Origin: Russula earlei
Taxonomy: Eukaryota > Basidiomycota > Agaricomycetes > Russulales > Russulaceae
Length of the DNA: 64,000 nt
Assembly (NCBI GenBank): GCA_025769875.1
Contig: JAGFNK010000076.1
Coordinates: 88,262 to 152,261, forward strand
Reading direction: 5' to 3'
Position 1 is the first letter of the stretch, and the number at the start of each line of letters is the position of its first letter. The notes under the pieces were generated by a model that saw only the letters and a list, made by a program, of their open reading frames with translations, ran no database searches and was not told where the DNA came from. Shown here one piece after another: positions 40,582-48,181 of the stretch. A program made the position numbers and the translations under genes.

Positions 40582-40838
40582 TGTTGGTGCTGGAAGATGC
40601 AGCCGCTTAGCTTAGTGCCGCGCGAACGGACAATCCGGACCGTACGTGTAAATAATTCGAATTAGTTATCGTTCGTCTTTTCCCTCAGCTTTGCTACATC
40701 ACACAGAAGACTGAGGTCAGTGCTACACATTCCTTTACACTCCATTTAAAGCTGATAGTGTACATAGTTATAATTCTATAGGTTAGCTGACTAACCCAAT
40801 ATAGTCTTTCGTATACAAGACTGAGCCTTCGTCCAACA
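40582..40838 (+). repeat. 5' LTR of the copia element, with candidate PBS after it
   Basis: Begins tgttggtgctgg and ends ccaaca. It shares with the 3' copy the stretch from gccgcgc (40618) through ataattc (about 40778), with small differences. The bases after it (gattatgagacctg) match the position and sense of the sequence after the LTR at 60536 in the second copia element, supporting a primer-binding site. The exact 5' limit is inferred. Confidence 0.6.
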
Positions 40839-40919
40839 GATTATGAGACCTGCCTGTCTCTGAACATTTCCATATACAGTCAAGCGCCTTCATCCTCCAA
40901 AGAAAGAGTTCTCCCACAA

Positions 40920-42017
40920 ATGAGCCGGACTAAACTCCAACGTCACGACGTGCCGATCCTTCAAGACGGCGCGGACGAATATGCTGATTGGAAGGGAGTA
41001 ATGGAAGCTATATTCGAAGCGACCGATCTGTTAGACATCGTAAACGGAACCGAAAAGAAACCGGACGCAAACGTCGAACCCGACGCCGCCGCCGACTGGA
41101 CGGCAAGGGATCGCGAAGCGCGCGCCCAAATCTTTATGTCCGTACGAGGGCACGCTCTCAAAACAATACTCGGCGTAAAGAGTTCGTCAGAGTGCTGGAA
41201 AAAGCTCTCATCTCGGTTCGAAGGGCAGGGCGACCAGCAAGTCGCCCACTTACTGTCAGACCTATACCTGACCACCCTCTCGGACACCGAAGCAATGGCT
41301 CCCCAGCTCGAGCACAAAATGCAACTCGCGCGCACGCTCGAAACGCTCGGATGCCCAATACCCGAAAATCTTCTTGCATGGATGATCGTCATTGCACTTC
41401 CGGAAACACATAAATCCATACTGTATTCCATGCCCCCCCCTGACAAACTCAGTACCGACCACGTCATCGGCCAAATCCTGGCAAACGAACAACGCCCGCT
41501 CCGCGCGTCCATTACCCAGGAGCACCTCCGAGCCGCCGATCTCAGAGACGGCTGGCTCATCGATTCCGGGGCCTCACGCATCATGACGTCCCGTCATGAT
41601 TGGTTCACACATCTCACCCCATTCGCATCACCCATCCAAATCGTCTTAGGCGACGATAGCACAATACTCGCCACCGGAACCGGGCAAGTACAAGTCCGGA
41701 TGCGCGCACGCGGCGCGTGGAGTACTGCGATACTCCGCGACGTCCTGTACGTCCCGGACCTCAAAGGGAACCTCTTATCGGTCTCCCATTTCGCTCAACG
41801 CGGGGCGGAAGTGCGCTTCCAGGGGCAGACATGCGGAATATACGATGATAACAAACTAATATGTGAGGGAAAATTACATGGAAACGTGTACACTATGGCC
41901 ATCCAAATGCCCAAATTCAAGACAGCGCGCACAGCGACGCTAGACCCAATCCTCACGGAAGGCGACCACAAAATTGAAGCCGCGCTTGCCGCGCTGAAGT
42001 GTGTCGGAGACGCTTGA
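40920..42017 (+). pseudogene. Copia gag fused to aspartic protease, zinc knuckle and downstream pol missing
   Basis: One open frame of 365 codons starting MSRTKLQRHDVPILQDGADE. The first two thirds are a copia-type Gag (UBN2-like) with YADWKGVMEAIFEATDLLDI, CWKKLSSRFEGQGDQQVAHL and a leucine-rich helix set. It passes directly from ITQEHLRAADL to DGWLIDSGASRIMTS, a retroviral-type aspartic protease motif (DSGA), with no CCHC zinc knuckle between, so an in-frame deletion is likely. The protease then reads YVPDLKGNLLSVSHFAQRGA, typical of copia. The frame ends at 42017, just where the GAG pre-integrase (H-H zinc finger) region should begin, next to the Crinkler-like gene. Confidence 0.75.
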
Positions 42018-42186
42018 GTGAGTAAGAGTGGGGCTGACCGGTCCCAAGGGAAGAGAGAGGAGAGGGGGAGAGAGGAGCAAGTGGGCGCGCGCGCAGTCGT
42101 TCGAGTTCTTCGTTCAAGCAGAGATAGATGTCAAAGAAAAAGGGATCTTATTCAAACCAAAACTATCCTACTACAGAGTAGCAGGA

Positions 42187-42201
42187 AATTTTTATATATA
42201 G
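42187..42201 (+). promoter_or_regulatory. Candidate TATA box for the Crinkler-like gene
   Basis: The motif tttttatatatag lies about 210 bp before the Crinkler-like ATG at 42408 and after the end of the copia gag-protease frame. It is the only strong TATA-like run there. Promoter role is inference from position. Confidence 0.35.
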
Positions 42202-42407
42202 GAAGGGAGTACTAAGAGAGGCATGGAAAAACGAGATGATGAGATGAGTTTGAGATGGTGAAAGGGAGTTTGAGGCCGGGCGAGGCGGTCGAGGTGGTGG
42301 CGAACGGCCTGGATCACTAATGCAGATGTTACGAAAGTAACGTAACACATGCCGAATTGTTTGTTCTCACTCCCACTCATCCTCGTCCCCGTCTACTATC
42401 ACCCTCA

Positions 42408-45126
42408 ATGCTCCTTTTTGTATATCCGATCGGACTACGCATCCCTTTCCCAGTCGAGATTGAAGAGTCGGAGACCGTTGGCCATCTAAAAAAAGCAATT
42501 TTGCGTGAAAACCCCAACGACTTCAAAGATATTGACGCCCGCCGGCTTGTCCTCTACCAAGTCGACTTACCTGATGACGAGGACCTTGAGGAAGCTGCTA
42601 AACAAGCTGCGAAAGATCGACTGTCGCTGAAAGCGACTCGCTTGCTCTCCACACTATTCCCGACGGGTCCTCCAGAGCTGAAGATCAGCATCGTCGTGGA
42701 GGATCCAAAGTTCAGAGAGAGTGAGTCCCCGACGAGCGTTGCCGATGACATTATGCTTAATCCTCGCTTCCCAATTTCATTCCAATTGCGACGTGGCAAC
42801 TCATGACATTCTTGTGCGGCGACCATGTCGTTTTTACAGATGTGGCTGAAGTCAGCCAGGCGCTCAACTCGGAACTGGTCAAAGAGTACAAAGACATCTT
42901 CATCAATGTGTCCAATTGGGGAGACTTCGAGGAGGCCGATATCCACGGCAATCATATTGTGGAAGCGACAGCGGTACCACAATTTGTTACAGAGTTTGAA
43001 AAAAAGCTGGACAGCAAGCCGACTGTGACCCCTGATGTGCGATGTTTCCTTGACTTGTCCGTCTGCTTTCCGATTTTGACTGTTTAATGTAGTTGTATTC
43101 CGCGTGCGAATGTATCTCCGGTCAATCTTTGGCTGCTGCATATGATAGAAGCAACGAGGCCATGGACATCGACGATGGGCCACCCGAGGAATCCATCTCC
43201 GACTTCCGATCTCTGGGTGAGCGGGAGGTGCCTCGTCAAGCCCAGGGAGACGAGATGTCACATGTGGTGTATATTATGTCCGATAAATGGCCAAGCCATC
43301 AGCAACGGCAACAGAATCGCAACGATGCTTTCAAGGAACGTGTGGCCCAGATGATCTTTTTCGGAAAGTTGTACTACTATTTTCAAGGGCAAACAACGAT
43401 CACGGCTCATCTGTAAGTTTTCACTTGGTCCATCTATCACGACTTAGCATCTTCCGTAGAGGCCACGAGCCATGGCCTTTCGATCTTATCGTCAAACATG
43501 AAAACGAAACCGGACCAACACAATTCCGTAAATACAAGCCTCGTAGCGATTTCCGCTTATCGAAGTCACGTCTTCCTCGACTGCTAGTAGAGGTTGATTC
43601 GACGTCAAGGGTATATGACGATCCCAACCGAAAGCCTGTGGACCTTATCCGGATGCTTTTGGCAGGGGCTGCCGTGGTCCGTTTTGCAAACAAATTCTTG
43701 GAATCGTTCAAGGGGCGGGATTTCGTGCTCGTTGCTGTCTATATCACGAGCAAAGGGGTAGCAAGTCGTTATACGATTTTTCAGGATCCGGATGATCCGA
43801 ATTCGCCATTCGTATGTCGTCCCCTGGGTTTCGAGTAAGCTCGTTGGCTGAAACATCGTAGGTTTATTACAACCAAAAGGCATTTTCGTTTGGGACCTCG
43901 AATGGCCGCATCGAGTTTGCACGCCAGTTGTACAACCTTAATTACATGCTAGAAGGGGCAAACGAAGGCAAAGACACGGAATCAAATGTTGACAGGCTCA
44001 AGGAGAAGATCTTGAAATATAGCAAGAAATTTCCTTTGGAGTCGATGTTCGGCAAGGGCACCAAGAAGAATGCTGACAAGACAGATGACGGTGCAGGTAC
44101 CGGTGGAGGTAGGGGCGCGGGTGCGGGAAGCGCAGATGCAGCAGACCACATGGAGTTCCGAGCACACGGGTATGAGGTGGAACCTGAAGTCGTGGTGGAT
44201 AACCGCGGTAACGTATTCGAGCCGCTTGTCAAGGTGTGGTAAACCTTTTCTACTCATTTTACGCGCTGACGCTTGGCCCCCAGATGCCGTCGCACATCCT
44301 CAAGGTGTATCGACCGTCGAACCCGAAAAATGTACTCATCGCGAAAAAAGTTCGCGAGGAATCGAAAGAGATCGCGATCTTCAACCTTCTTGATTCCATC
44401 CAGCCCAAGTCGAGACACATTATCTCGCTACTCGATTCGTTCCATATCTCGTCGAGGACGTGGCTCATTCTACCTAGAATGAGCTCTCTCGCGGATTATG
44501 TCACGATCTGCCCTGACGAACTTTATGGCAAGGTCGCTCAAGTTTGCGGGGGTCTCATTGAGGGCCTAGCGTATCTTCACAGACACTACATCGCTCACAG
44601 GGACATCAAGCCTCACAACCTTCTTGTCGACCGAGACTTTGACTTGAAAATCATCGATTTCGATATCGCTATGCAAGTGAAGGATGAGAACGAGGAAGTT
44701 AATGACCAATGCGGGACGAAGCATTGGATGGCACCGGAGATCGGCAAGTCGTGGTACAGTCCGATCAAGGCCGACCGATGGTCTTGCGGGCATGTTATAT
44801 TGCATCTTCTTGACGCAGTCGGGAAAGAAGACAATCAATGGAAGGCAATCGCGAGGAGGCTGGAGGCACATGATCCAGACAAGCGGCCGTCGTTACTTGA
44901 ATGGCCCATATGGTTCGCACCCCCGCCCTCGAACGTCGTCAACATAGCTGGTGAGATAAAGGCCCTGCGGCATCTCCAAGACACAGTGAAGGTCGATGGA
45001 GAAAACGCAATGCCCCTGCAGGCGAAGAAGCAGAGACTGACAGAATTTGACCGGAACGAGGGGGGGAGGGAGTTCGGAGGACGTTACGAACCACAGGCAT
45101 CGCAACCCGTGGTTAGAGTTTGTTGA
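42408..45126 (+). CDS. Crinkler-like protein: ubiquitin-like header, nuclease-like middle, protein kinase
   Basis: The ATG at 42408 gives MLLFVYPIGLRIPFPVEIEE and SETVGHLKKAILRENPNDFK, the ubiquitin-like N-terminal domain of Crinkler (CRN) effectors. Introns join it to VAEVSQALNSELVKEYKDIF and a middle region containing PWPFDLIVKHENETG and RLPRLLVEVDSTSRVYDDP, which may be a divergent PD-(D/E)XK nuclease fold. An intron near 44236 leads to a kinase: IAKKVREESKEIAIFNLLDS (beta-3 Lys), AHRDIKPHNLLVDRDFDLKI (catalytic loop), IIDFDIA (DFD instead of DFG), KHWMAPEIG and ADRWSCGHVILHLLDAVG. Stop at 45124-45126. All exons stay in frame with plausible splice sites, so the gene looks intact. It sits between the two halves of a copia element. 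Known CRN-type proteins act in host nuclei or in inter-element conflict; the role here is unknown. Confidence 0.75.
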
Positions 45127-45376
45127 ACTAATGGCACTTGTTGGTAGTGGTGTAGGCACATAGAATGTTGATACCCAGTCCCCAGTATCTATTATGTCTG
45201 AATTGTTCCCCGCTATGATTATTTTTATTTTTTCTAGATCTACTTTTATTTGTCGTTTTCAGATAATGTGACGCGCCGGAAATTTCCGAAAGAAAAGGGT
45301 TGGTAGGTCATGATCGGACCGATCCTCTTGCCGATATTATGGGTTTTCTCCGTGGCTTAAAAAAAAGTCGTTTCCA

Positions 45377-45425
45377 CTGCTTGCTGATCTGAGATGCCAC
45401 TCTAGCATCTCAGATCAGCAAGCAG
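45377..45425. repeat. Perfect 21-bp inverted repeat with 7-nt loop
   Basis: The left arm 45377-45397 (ctgcttgctgatctgagatgc) minus its last base is followed by loop 45398-45404 (cactcta) and the exact reverse complement at 45405-45425. It lies 250 bp after the Crinkler-like stop and before the copia pol remnant. It could form a strong hairpin in DNA or RNA. Flanking it, cact and agtg may extend the symmetry with a gap. Its role is unknown. Confidence 0.9.
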
Positions 45426-45661
45426 CTCGAGTGCAAGTCAAAAGGATTTTGGACGACCGTCCCATGTCTGATTCCTCCTAGTGGTCGGCATAATCCATGT
45501 GCCCCGATTACGATGAGGATGAAGAGTAGTCTGGAAATGGTTGTCGATTCTTTCTTGTGTAGCAATCCAGCCGGATGGATGAGGGCCTACAAGCTTTGAA
45601 CGCCCCTTATGGCCACCATCCTTAATGGACATTCAGATGGTCACTTTAACGGCAGAGTATC

Positions 45662-47056
45662 GTGCATGGTACTATCAGTGTGGAACCCGATCGCGTCTCG
45701 CGTACGCGTGGTCGGTGGCGAGGGCTTGACGTTGGGCGCGAGGGAGGTGGCGTGCGCGTGTGGTTGGTGGCAAGGGATAGGAAGGAGCTGAGGCAAGGGA
45801 GCGACGCGTCGCGTCGCGGTTCCGCACGTGATTTCGTGGCCATATGGCTACCTTACAGCGCGCACGATGACCCCCCGGGCCTTCTCGGACACACATGTGG
45901 GAAATCACCCACCAGAACACCCCAGCTTTCCGACTGGGTAAAAACGGAACCGCGGGAATACGCCGGCGGGCTGAAGCGCAAGTTGGAAGCGCCTCAGCAC
46001 CCCCAACCGTACACCGCAAGCGTTGAGCCCACGACCGGCCAACGCTTGAAGACCCTCCGATTAGATGGAGGGGGCGAACACACCGGGCGGGAAGTGCTAA
46101 CACCTCTAGCAAAAAAGAGAGTTAAACACGAGACTGACACCCCGGGTATGCCACAACACATCAACGTCGCGGAACGCGCGACCCGGACACATCTTGATAG
46201 GGTCCGGGCGACGCGTACAGACGCAAAACCGTCCACGCATGCCCTGGACGACACGACACCCAAGGAAGTAAGGTGTGGGGATGATCCCGACCCCTCCTGG
46301 CTGCACGTCTTCGGAGCGCACGCATCCGCGCACGCCACGGAGAAGAGACTCGCCGAGTCGACCCGAAGGTCGCTGGTGTCCACATTCCTGGGCCACACAT
46401 ATCAGCAGCAGGCATTCAAGCCTGTCGAATGCCCCACTCCTCGCACCATTACACCCCGCACCGTCATATCCGACGAAGGGGGCCCCATGTCGCGCATCGA
46501 ACGCGTGATCCTCGAATACGACGGAACAGCCGAAAGAGCCGAGAGTCGGGAAATGAGAGCGAAGTTGAGGGGGCGGCAAATGTGGAACCGGCGGACAACA
46601 CGGAACAGCTGCCGCGCGCCGCACAGCAAGGCGTCGGAGCAGACAAGCCCCTGCCCGTCTTGCCTGAAACAGTCGGACAACGCGGAACAGCCGCCGCACA
46701 CCGAACCGCAAGGCGTCGGAGCAGATGATGTTCTGCCCGCTCAGCCTGAAGCACCACACAGTCAGCCCACAACTCATAAGGCAGAAAACTTACCCGCGCG
46801 ATCCGCCACGGGACAACCAAAGCGCACCACACGCGCGCTCACCCCCGACCAAGGCGATGAAGCGGAGGATGTGGAGGCCGAAAAGGCATCGCACGCCGAA
46901 CCGCAAGCCACCAACACGGACGAGGCTCTGCCCGTCCAACCTGAAACTAAATCAGTACAACTCACAGCCCACTGCTGGACGACCGAAGCACCCCAAACGC
47001 GCCACGCTCACACCTGTCTGCGACACGGACGCTCGCCATTCCGTCATCCCGCATGA
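45662..47056 (+). pseudogene. Copia integrase remnant, still open for 464 codons
   Basis: Degenerate copia integrase. Recognisable pieces are QRLKTLRLDGGGEHTGREV (catalytic Asp region), HINVAERATRTHLDRVRATR (the NGVAER region with the Glu), DPSWLHVFGAHASAHATEKR and LVSTFLGHTYQQQAFKPVEC, in correct order. Between them the sequence departs from the family, and the amino part up to about 45900 does not resemble a GAG pre-integrase domain. The frame continues through a Pro/Glu-rich spacer of repeated units (PHTEPQGVGADDVLPAQPEA and SHAEPQATNTDEALPVQPET) before stopping at 47056. Confidence 0.7.
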
Positions 47057-47932
47057 GCACCGAATGAAACGTACCGAGCAAGGAAATGCGGCACACAAAA
47101 TGTGGCCAGCTATCCCCAAGTCCTATGCTGAGGCGACAGCCCGCGCAGATTCTGCTGAGTGGGCAAGGGCGCGCAAAGTCGAGAAACGTGTGCTCAAAAA
47201 CACCAGCGCTCTCGAAATTGCGCCGCACCCGCAGAACAGAGACGCAGCGGGGATGCAAGTGGACCTTCCGAACAAAAATGGGAAACTTCAAAAAGACAAG
47301 GCCCGCGTTATCATGCAAGGACTCACCCAAGTCGAGGGCAACGATCCCAACGAAAGTGTGCCGCCAGAAAACCGGCACTTCCTTGCACCCTGGCCCTCGC
47401 CGAAGAACGAAGTCTTGAAGGCCATCAGAAGTCCGCCTACCTAAACGGAGAGCCAATGGACAAGATTTTCATTGAAACGTGCCCAGGGAATGACCACCAA
47501 TGCACGCTCACACGCGTGACCCAATACGCCCAAGGTACGAGCGAGAGTCCGGCACCCAGCCAATCTTGGCCGGATAATCGACCCCGACTGGACCAGCAAA
47601 GTCCACTTCGGACTTCGTCTTCATGTTGACAGGTGGACCCGCAAGCTGGAGCCAAAAGAAGCAAACCCCCGGTTGCACCCTTGAGCACCGAGGCGGAGCA
47701 CACCACGGACGCACGCGCCGCCAAAGAAGCCGCCAGGCTGAGGCGACTACTCACCGGATTGGGTCAAGAGACCTATCTCCTCACAATCCCCCACATCGAC
47801 AATCAGTCGACCATCGCTGTTGCCAAGAACCCCGAACTTCACACATCGAGGTGTAACACCATTTCTTGCAGAAAGTTGACTTGCAGTGGACCAATCTCGC
47901 CTACACTCAGACATAAGAGCAAGTAGTCGATG
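47057..47932 (+). pseudogene. Copia reverse transcriptase and RNase H fragments
   Basis: Three frames are needed. AAHKMWPAIPKSYAEATARA with GKLQKDKARVIMQGLTQVEG is the start of the copia RT. KSAYLNGEPMDKIFIETCPG follows in another frame. The RT catalytic core is deleted. GGPASWSQKKQ then leads in a further frame to APLSTEAEHTTDARAAKEAA, RLRRLLTGLG and HIDNQSTIAVAKNPELH, the RNase H end of copia Pol. The piece cannot encode a working polymerase. Confidence 0.8.
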
Positions 47933-48019
47933 TATTGACAAAAGGTCCCAGCCGCGAGGAGTACAAATGTCTTCGCGATGGAGATGGGAGGGAACGCGCA
48001 CCACTCGGGCTGAGGGGCG

Positions 48020-48181
48020 TGTTGGAAGTGCCGAGTGTGCCGCGCAAACGGACAATCCGGACCGTACGTACGTTGTAAATAATTCGGATTAGTTATCGTT
48101 TGTCTTCCCCTCTGACTTGTGTCAGTACTACACAATCCTTTACACTCCATTTAATGCTAATAGTGTACATAGCTATAATTC
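48020..48181 (+). repeat. 3' LTR of the copia element, truncated
   Basis: Begins tgttggaagtgccgag after a purine-rich tract (gaggggcg, 48012-48019). It matches the 5' LTR through ggacaatccggaccgtacg, ataattcg-attagttatcg and cctttacactccattta-gct, then diverges after ataattc (about 48181). Confidence 0.7.

Follow-up and report, generated by a model that had tools for sequence, protein, structure and literature searches.

A permuted Crinkler-kinase block nested in a copia retrotransposon of Russula earlei and its possible passage through a DNA circle

An intact multi-exon gene lying between the two halves of a decayed retrotransposon raises the question of how it came to be there. We examined such a locus in the basidiomycete Russula earlei, in a 64,000-nucleotide stretch of DNA (contig JAGFNK010000076.1, positions 88,262 to 152,261; here called the window, whose numbering is used throughout). 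The original prediction, made from the letters alone, had placed a Crinkler-type gene within a copia element and proposed either that the gene was captured as retroelement cargo or that it inserted into an old element that now serves as a haven.

Nesting of a Crinkler block in a repeat within copia

The features of the locus are as follows, with the exons of the gene given in the next section.

40582-40826, + strand: copia 5' LTR, 3' edge approximate (pairs with 48020-48181)
40827-41994, + strand: copia 5' internal region with gag and Pol_BBD (Pfam; joined to the 3' half in 11/11 copies)
41995-42313, + strand: left arm of repeat X, TG..CA ends, GCGC duplication (empty-site comparison)
42314-45680, + strand: Crinkler block, TGGA on either side at 42310-42313 and 45681-45684 (empty X sites; permuted relative to C118B and C394b)
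45249-45305, + strand: 57-bp terminal-inverted-repeat piece of transposon T (inverted pairs elsewhere)
45306-45680, + strand: fragment U, decayed remnant of another Crinkler-type gene's body (matches at other Crinkler loci)
45681-45857, + strand: right arm of X, its first four bases repeating TGGA (empty-site comparison)
45858-48019, + strand: copia 3' internal region, frames broken, SH3-like at about 46277-46477 (Pfam, copy comparison)
48020-48181, + strand: copia 3' LTR, truncated at 48181 (pairing with the 5' LTR)

The 5' half of copia matches gag (E = 2.5e-27) and Pol_BBD (E = 4e-24) in Pfam; in the 3' half an SH3-like match (E = 5e-4) falls under its own curated cut-off, and no reverse transcriptase was found in the three frames scanned. 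The LTRs differ by 17 substitutions in 157 aligned bases (10.8%), and the 5' LTR has at least 41 matches in the genome, several of which stop near 40826. The two halves are adjacent and uninterrupted in all 11 other copies examined (of 39 other places among the matches listed). Both halves and both LTRs, with gag, BBD and pol in order between them, are one element, which settles the concern that the LTR-like blocks might belong to two unrelated ones.

X is a 492-bp solo-LTR-like repeat inside copia, with TG..CA ends, a 4-bp GCGC target duplication (within the 4-6 bp of solo LTRs) and no internal region. The copia copies (L064-L074) continue past the X site in 11/11 cases by BLAST, 8 of them seen as aligned sequence. 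At the next level, 13 of the 15 other X places examined read straight across the Crinkler site as CCTGGAA, the sequence is rearranged at that point in the other two (C474, C181), and the Crinkler gene is present in none of the 15. Because empty sites exist at both levels, the nesting is not due to chance; the direct insertion target of the Crinkler block is X already within copia, not copia itself.

The original prediction was thus right that the gene inserted into an old element, and in the comparison of copia copies with and without the gene that it had called for, all 11 examined were empty. The interruption of copia that it described is real, with different boundaries: copia stops at 41994 rather than 42017 and resumes at 45858 rather than about 45900. 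Its Crinkler does lie in the gap, of which 41995-42313 and 45681-45857 are the arms of X, overlooked at the time along with the permuted block order, the DNA-transposon end piece and the decayed second Crinkler-type fragment.

The block is 3,367 bp long and runs Crinkler, 57-bp transposon-end piece, fragment U; the portion at 45249-45680 is foreign to both copia and the Crinkler gene. T is a DNA transposon whose inverted end pairs lie 2.5-2.7 kb apart in 7 contigs, and its copy L080 is flanked by AGCACTAAT; by its 9-bp duplication T is Mutator-like. Inverted repeats at C878 were considered as proof of a Crinkler transposon and rejected, since the repeat is T, which is present at many Crinkler-free places (40 of 79 candidate T places scored). 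In 9 of the 37 loci scanned (L012, L013, L019, L023, L024, L028, L029, L030, L037) the header is followed by the body of another Crinkler-type gene, and this is what U resembles; the earlier readings of U as an intergenic flank or a palindromic MITE were dropped. A search for a second haplotype of the locus returned the window itself as the sole match.

The inserted gene and its relatives

As predicted, the gene at 42408-45126 is an intact multi-exon Crinkler/kinase gene inside a decayed copia; it has six exons, all frames are intact, and the phases close by coordinates. Its five introns are all GT-AG and 47-56 bp long.

42408-42792, + strand: exon 1, Crinkler header PF20147 (Pfam, reading frames)
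42840-43036, + strand: exon 2 (GT-AG joins, P0250)
43093-43412, + strand: exon 3 (GT-AG joins, P0250)
43460-43811, + strand: exon 4, candidate REase-like domain, SDF...LLVEVDS (alignment; fold suggestive)
43862-44233, + strand: exon 5, linker (GT-AG joins, P0250)
44284-45126, + strand: exon 6, protein kinase with HRDIKPHN and DFD, and stop (Pfam, P0250 fold search)

Exon 1 matches the PF20147 header (E = 7e-19; 69 bits against a cut-off of 24.6) and exon 6 matches Pkinase (E = 3e-30), indicating that the enzymatic C-terminal module is present; the best solved relative is PAK1. A database model from the same genome, P0250, lacks the header and has the same joins at introns 2-5, and in its Foldseek fold search the best 50 of at least 2,000 rows were all kinases. 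The earlier label of nuclease-kinase holds for the kinase, while its nuclease part is unproven: no Pfam match to an REase (PD-(D/E)XK) domain rose above the cut-off. The middle block of the P0250 model (pLDDT 39-87) has the order helix-strands-helix-strand, compatible with an REase fold; a second structure model, at pLDDT 50, was too poor to read. At the ExK lysine position the two R. earlei rows have D and the other 14 of the 16 covering rows have N. The gene may still work as a Crinkler-type conflict or signaling kinase.

The search for Crinkler genes listed 69 matches, some of them pieces of one gene. Seven further copies in the genome match the window gene at 97-98% identity over 2.7 kb, introns included, and the introns are kept in 14 other near-full-length copies; identity at this level that extends to introns indicates DNA-mediated copying. 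At 19 exon sites the window differs from a base common to five close copies, and at 16 of these its base is also absent from C13 and C551a; U in the window has 16 changes of its own in 314 positions. A misassembly of one of the copies examined can therefore be rejected as the origin of the block.

Close copies that diverge by less than 2% in their bodies can be as much as 15% apart in the header exon. Exon 1 of the window gene is 4-11% from that of close copies, the upper end approximating the distance between the copia LTRs. The haven suggested in the original prediction is conjectural: LTR matches of this copia lie near other Crinkler genes at 5 of 37 loci scanned, or 3 if C551 and C9 are alleles, in an uncontrolled count.

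Order of the block and how it may have arisen

U lies directly upstream of the Crinkler at C118B/C681B and C394b and downstream of it in the window; for C118B/C681B, in L017/L018 coordinates, U spans 2179-1902 and the Crinkler starts at 1891. C118B runs unbroken as ...CAGTGTGG-CTCACTGTCG...-Crinkler, and the window block, which begins TGGA-TCACT and ends CAGTG-TGGA, carries the two halves of this sequence at its outer ends, which are therefore neighbors in its relatives. The fit at the left border holds only with a 9-base gap and A for C. Upstream of U, C118B and C394b have a common stretch of 331 bp at 93% identity, and their U-Crinkler order therefore looks original. In the window the new join of the T end to U reads GGTTGGTAG followed by GTCATGATC (versus GCTAGGACATGATC), and short repeats are present at both joins. 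The assembly holds no exact donor; U in the window has pieces that are common with C394b and missing from C118B.

The published test for circle-mediated duplication looks for segments that have traded places and kept their direction (PMC7188851; PMC9694575), and two adjacent segments of the window block show this arrangement. We therefore favor, with a probability of roughly 0.68 and from sequence comparison, a route in which the Crinkler segment departed from a different locus in the form of a small DNA circle that then integrated into X within copia. A source segment of ~3.4 kb, comprising U, the whole Crinkler-kinase gene with its introns and the 57 bp that begin the neighboring T, would have come by copying or excision from a Crinkler locus resembling C118B, and its ends would have been joined at a TAG microhomology to form the putative circle. 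This circle would then have come apart between U and the Crinkler and been joined to TGG(A) in X, which was already in the old copia; the arrangement that results is Crinkler, T end, U, bordered on each side by TGGA. Against this reading, it concerns a single event with no other copy shown to be permuted, the donor is missing from the assembly, the left border fits C118B imperfectly, the divergence of exon 1 from close copies reaches that between the LTRs, and a 4-bp duplication also fits a transposase.

The strongest alternative, which we regard as unlikely, is a lost tandem array (U-Crinkler-T-U-Crinkler-T) from which a linear segment, running from one unit into the next, entered X with no circular intermediate. 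Local duplication is seen in this family, with two same-direction copies ~20 kb apart in C118 and two inverted copies in C394, and a remnant of ~30 bp of U lies directly upstream of C118 copy A. However, C118B and C394b have one full U each, so the flank is not on both sides of the Crinkler, no listed locus has the Crinkler between two full copies of U, and among the matches listed the T-U join is spanned by none except the window itself. Both segment ends would also have to hit the identical point in two consecutive units. A donor with the flank on both sides is described as the tandem false positive of the circle test (PMC7188851).

Quite improbable, in our view, is that the block is an unrecognized transposable element with fixed ends that carries the Crinkler, TGGA being its 4-bp target duplication. 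Sharp borders, the 4-bp repeat, dispersed near-identical copies and weakly similar ends (CACTAAT versus CACTGAT) are what such an element would show, but the BLAST ends of other copies (C118A, C394a/b, C878, C13, C551a) vary on the 5' side (42314-42315, 42323, 42373-42374, 42386) and on the 3' side (45200, 45248, 45305-45306), and beyond the supposed 5' end the C118B sequence continues into U. Part of this variation comes from later insertions, namely, T before C394a/C878 and a 6.9-kb insert in C118B, where the matching block breaks off at 45194 and picks up again at 45199. Separate insertions of U and the Crinkler at a single point, in either order, would account for each piece having its own relatives, but the outer ends of the combined block adjoin in C118B and share TGG, which is not expected from separate events and makes them very hard to credit. 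We discount the cargo reading of the original prediction, in which copia captured the gene found between its halves and LTRs and moves with it, as the gene is in none of the 11 other copia copies examined, retains its introns, lies in a decayed element and is separated from copia by X.

Relation to known systems and implications

Retroelements insert into the kinetoplastid retrotransposon hot spot (RHS) genes, a polarity opposite to that of the window gene, which sits inside retroelements. These genes are described as encoding CR relatives associated with retroelements (PMC5289972). Crinklers of Phytophthora infestans are likewise found among mobile elements as dispersed copies, in helitron-rich regions and with a gypsy element within a CRN gene (PMC5289972), but there the elements are in or near the gene and here the gene is inside the elements. 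The window protein resembles CR proteins that combine an REase with a kinase (Zhang et al. 2016, in the account of PMC5289972) in its PF20147 Ubl header, C-terminal kinase and REase-compatible alpha-beta middle, and differs from them in that the canonical ExK lysine is replaced. The variation among copies reverses the description of oomycete Crinklers, as recent copies here vary in the header and are uniform in the body.

Known circle-mediated cases include cattle color-sidedness and wine yeast (cited in PMC9694575) and three human cases (PMC7188851), the latter apparently having made no new coding gene according to that account. The window block shares with such duplications and translocations the swapped order, same direction and new location; it differs in being an intact multi-exon basidiomycete gene in a nest of retroelements, with a circle that we infer from sequence. 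No circle-mediated translocation is reported for 306 Magnaporthe genomes in an analysis that masked TEs and covered nonrepetitive regions only (PMC9694575). In the literature collection that we searched, nothing relevant joined Crinklers and circular DNA, and there was nothing on this genome.

For the spread and reshuffling of Crinklers, helitron-mediated movement is one published hypothesis (PMC5289972), and the window locus gives exact joins for one event. At its most speculative, and as a long shot, Russulaceae Crinklers might spread routinely as small circles, perhaps with help from the REase-like protein that they encode, acting at the locus from which it is made; the family would then be a gene-sized selfish element without fixed ends, with header conversion retargeting near-identical bodies. 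The locus itself suggests a route that needs no transposase and yields a complete, intron-containing gene. If this is true, the permuted-order test would be applicable to any family of effector-like genes in fungal genomes, without leaving out repeats.

Nesting of X and the Crinkler block within the copia element

The two copia halves are parts of one element, as the original prediction had held: the 5' half runs into the 3' half in all 11 other copies fetched, out of 39 other places listed. Between the halves in the window lies the repeat X, 492 bp with ends TG..CA and a GCGC duplication, whose borders read CTTGCCGCGC-TGAAG...CTTACA-GCGCGCACG; at this site the copia copies read CTTACCGCGCGCACG or near variants (8 copies printed). 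The block with the Crinkler-kinase gene lies in turn inside X, bordered by GGCC-TGGA-TCACTAATG...ATCAGTG-TGGA-ACCCG. At the Crinkler site, CCTGGAA is uninterrupted in 13 of the 15 other X places examined; of the remaining two, the place on contig C474 lacks the site and that on C181 is rearranged (CCTGGCA), and a Crinkler occupies the site in none of the 15. The genome searched is a single assembly of 66.6 Mb in 1374 contigs, with the window at C76:88262-152261, and genome repeat counts are lower bounds. For the adjoining NAD(P)-binding gene, the closest of the named matches is from Russula dissimulans (82%).

The order of events follows from the nesting by itself, and the divergences agree loosely with it: 10.8% substitutions between the LTRs of the window copia (13.8% between this element and one near copy), 5.5 to 10.2% for X (three comparisons), 3.3 to 6.7% for noncoding parts of the block (six comparisons), and, in comparison with five close copies, 0.9 to 1.6% for its exons 2-5 and 6. 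Exon 1, at 4.2 to 10.7% against the same five copies, is out of line with the divergence clock, an excess that we attribute to putative header exchange.

LTR pieces from the copia family of the window element lie ~0.1 to 0.8 kb upstream of other Crinkler genes at 5 of the 37 loci scanned, as a raw count. The pieces, by fetched locus, are as follows.

L025/L027, ~1174-1377: copia-family LTR pieces
L032/L036, ~1922-2586: copia-family LTR pieces
L013, 1135-1272: copia-family LTR pieces

Permuted order of the block

U (window 45306-45683), which by sequence resembles the body of a second Crinkler-type gene, lies directly 5' of the Crinkler in copies B of C118 and C681 and copy b of C394; in the window it lies downstream, past 57 bp of the end of the DNA transposon T. 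The window block begins TGGA-TCACT-AATGC and ends CAGTG-TGGA, and in C118B CAGTGTGGCTCACTGTCGTCACAAATGC continues into the 5' flank of the gene, although aligning the two at this border needs a 9-base gap and A for C following TGG. Since C118B is unbroken across the two ends of the block, these outer ends adjoin in relatives. The second-gene alignment also extends beyond the breakpoint in C118B (9 of 12 bases by count, weak support alone). Farther upstream, 331 bp are common to C118B and C394b at 93%, which makes U followed by Crinkler look like the original order. Short stretches similar to U occur 3' of the header at 9 of the 37 Crinkler loci scanned, and one open piece of the second gene, at L012, is CVVEFKNELADI.

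In the window, T meets U as GGTTGGTAG joined to GTCATGATC, with TAG shared by the two sides; the corresponding sequence of C118B and C394b is CTAGCTAGGACATGAT. Among the matches listed for three queries, two of which scored 40 candidates each, only the window itself spans this join. Paired inverted ends of T stand 2.5 to 2.7 kb apart in 7 contigs among the matches listed; of the two copies read, that on C33 has a 9-bp duplication and that on C20 has none. On C878, T ends face the Crinkler from both sides, and C394a has a 5' flank in common with C878 and a different 3' flank (L020, L021, L044 and L076 for the 5' flanks of C394a and C878 and the 3' flank of C878). In C118B, the 3' gene flank before T is split by a PIF-Harbinger-like insert of ~6.9 kb (C118:38783-45664), whose ends read GGCCCCATTTACCAACC and which is flanked by TTA at each border.

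Swapped order in the same direction is a sign of duplication via a circle, according to the passages of PMC7188851 cited here, which name an older tandem array as its chief false positive. The window block bears this sign and probably arose by circle-mediated duplication. Derivation of the order from a lost tandem array, with no circle, is unlikely but retains some probability, since C118 is a two-copy cluster whose copy A retains ~30 bp of U; a complete U flanking the gene on each side is absent from C118B and from C394b alike. That the block is a transposon with fixed ends is improbable, since the homology blocks of other copies stop at other points, even though later insertions caused some of these differing ends. 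C118B itself is ruled out as the donor, because the window U keeps pieces present in C394b and missing from C118B.

Other copies and the variable header

Near-full-length matches over 2,719 bp were found at 15 places, the window counted. Seven copies (two each on C118, C681 and C394, one on C878) are 97 to 98% identical, introns included, and seven (C13, two each on C551 and C9, C614 and C1258) are 86 to 93% identical; C118/C681, C551/C9 and C614/C1258 are probably allele pairs. Because the copies retain introns, the gene spread by a DNA-mediated route. Exon 6 has a 5-bp deletion in C118B and a 1-bp deletion in C394b, exon 1 of C394a and C878 has two mutually compensating 1-bp indels, and in C681A the aligned exons carry a number of 1-bp differences, perhaps errors of assembly. 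A shrunken Crinkler, its header-region sequence fused directly to the final ~150 bp, is present at L032 2631-3235 (C551) and at C9:263302-263899.

With the window copy as reference in every comparison and no significance test, dN/dS for exons 2-5 was 0.08 to 0.21 in six close copies (9 to 14 synonymous and 4 to 7 nonsynonymous changes each), 0.10 in C681A on a shorter stretch, and 0.33 to 0.50 in the farther copies C13, C551 and C9. For exon 1, the six close copies that had data gave 0.38 to 1.11; the exon 6 values, 0.66 to 1.99, rest on 1 to 3 synonymous changes. Pairwise among the window, C118A, C118B, C394a, C394b and C878, exon 1 differs by 0.8 to 15.2% and exons 2-5 or 6 by 0 to 1.6%; between C394a and C394b, the differences are 55/375 in exon 1, 0/1209 in exons 2-5, and 9/842 in exon 6. 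Header exchange or body conversion would fit such a variable exon 1 beside a uniform body. Oomycete CRNs likewise recombine at the header end, as described in passages of PMC5289972; in those proteins, though, it is the body that varies, whereas here it is the exon 1 header.

The encoded protein

By their coordinates, the six exons sum to 2,469 bases, which encode 822 residues plus the stop codon, and the five introns, each 47 to 56 bp, are all GT-AG. Inspection of reading frames in the window copy found no frame break or internal stop in any exon, in agreement with the prediction that the inserted gene keeps all frames. The label of nuclease-kinase stood in part: Pfam profile searches recovered the PF20147 header in the first exon (69 bits against a cut-off of 24.6) and a protein kinase domain in the last (E=3e-30). 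The latter contains the kinase motifs IAKKV and HRDIKPHN, and DFD in place of DFG; DFD occurs in 13 of 14 kinase-bearing alignment rows, and P0247 has DLD. The middle region gave nothing above the Pfam cut-off, and of the 16 alignment rows that span the position of the usual ExK lysine, the two from R. earlei have D and the remaining 14 have N; we therefore do not claim a nuclease. In the AlphaFold model of P0250, a database protein of the same family on C878, this region runs helix, strands, helix, strand (block pLDDT 39 to 87), an order compatible with a candidate REase fold. The public gene model of P0250 begins past intron 1 and omits the Crinkler header, and annotation-based counts of such genes may therefore be too low.
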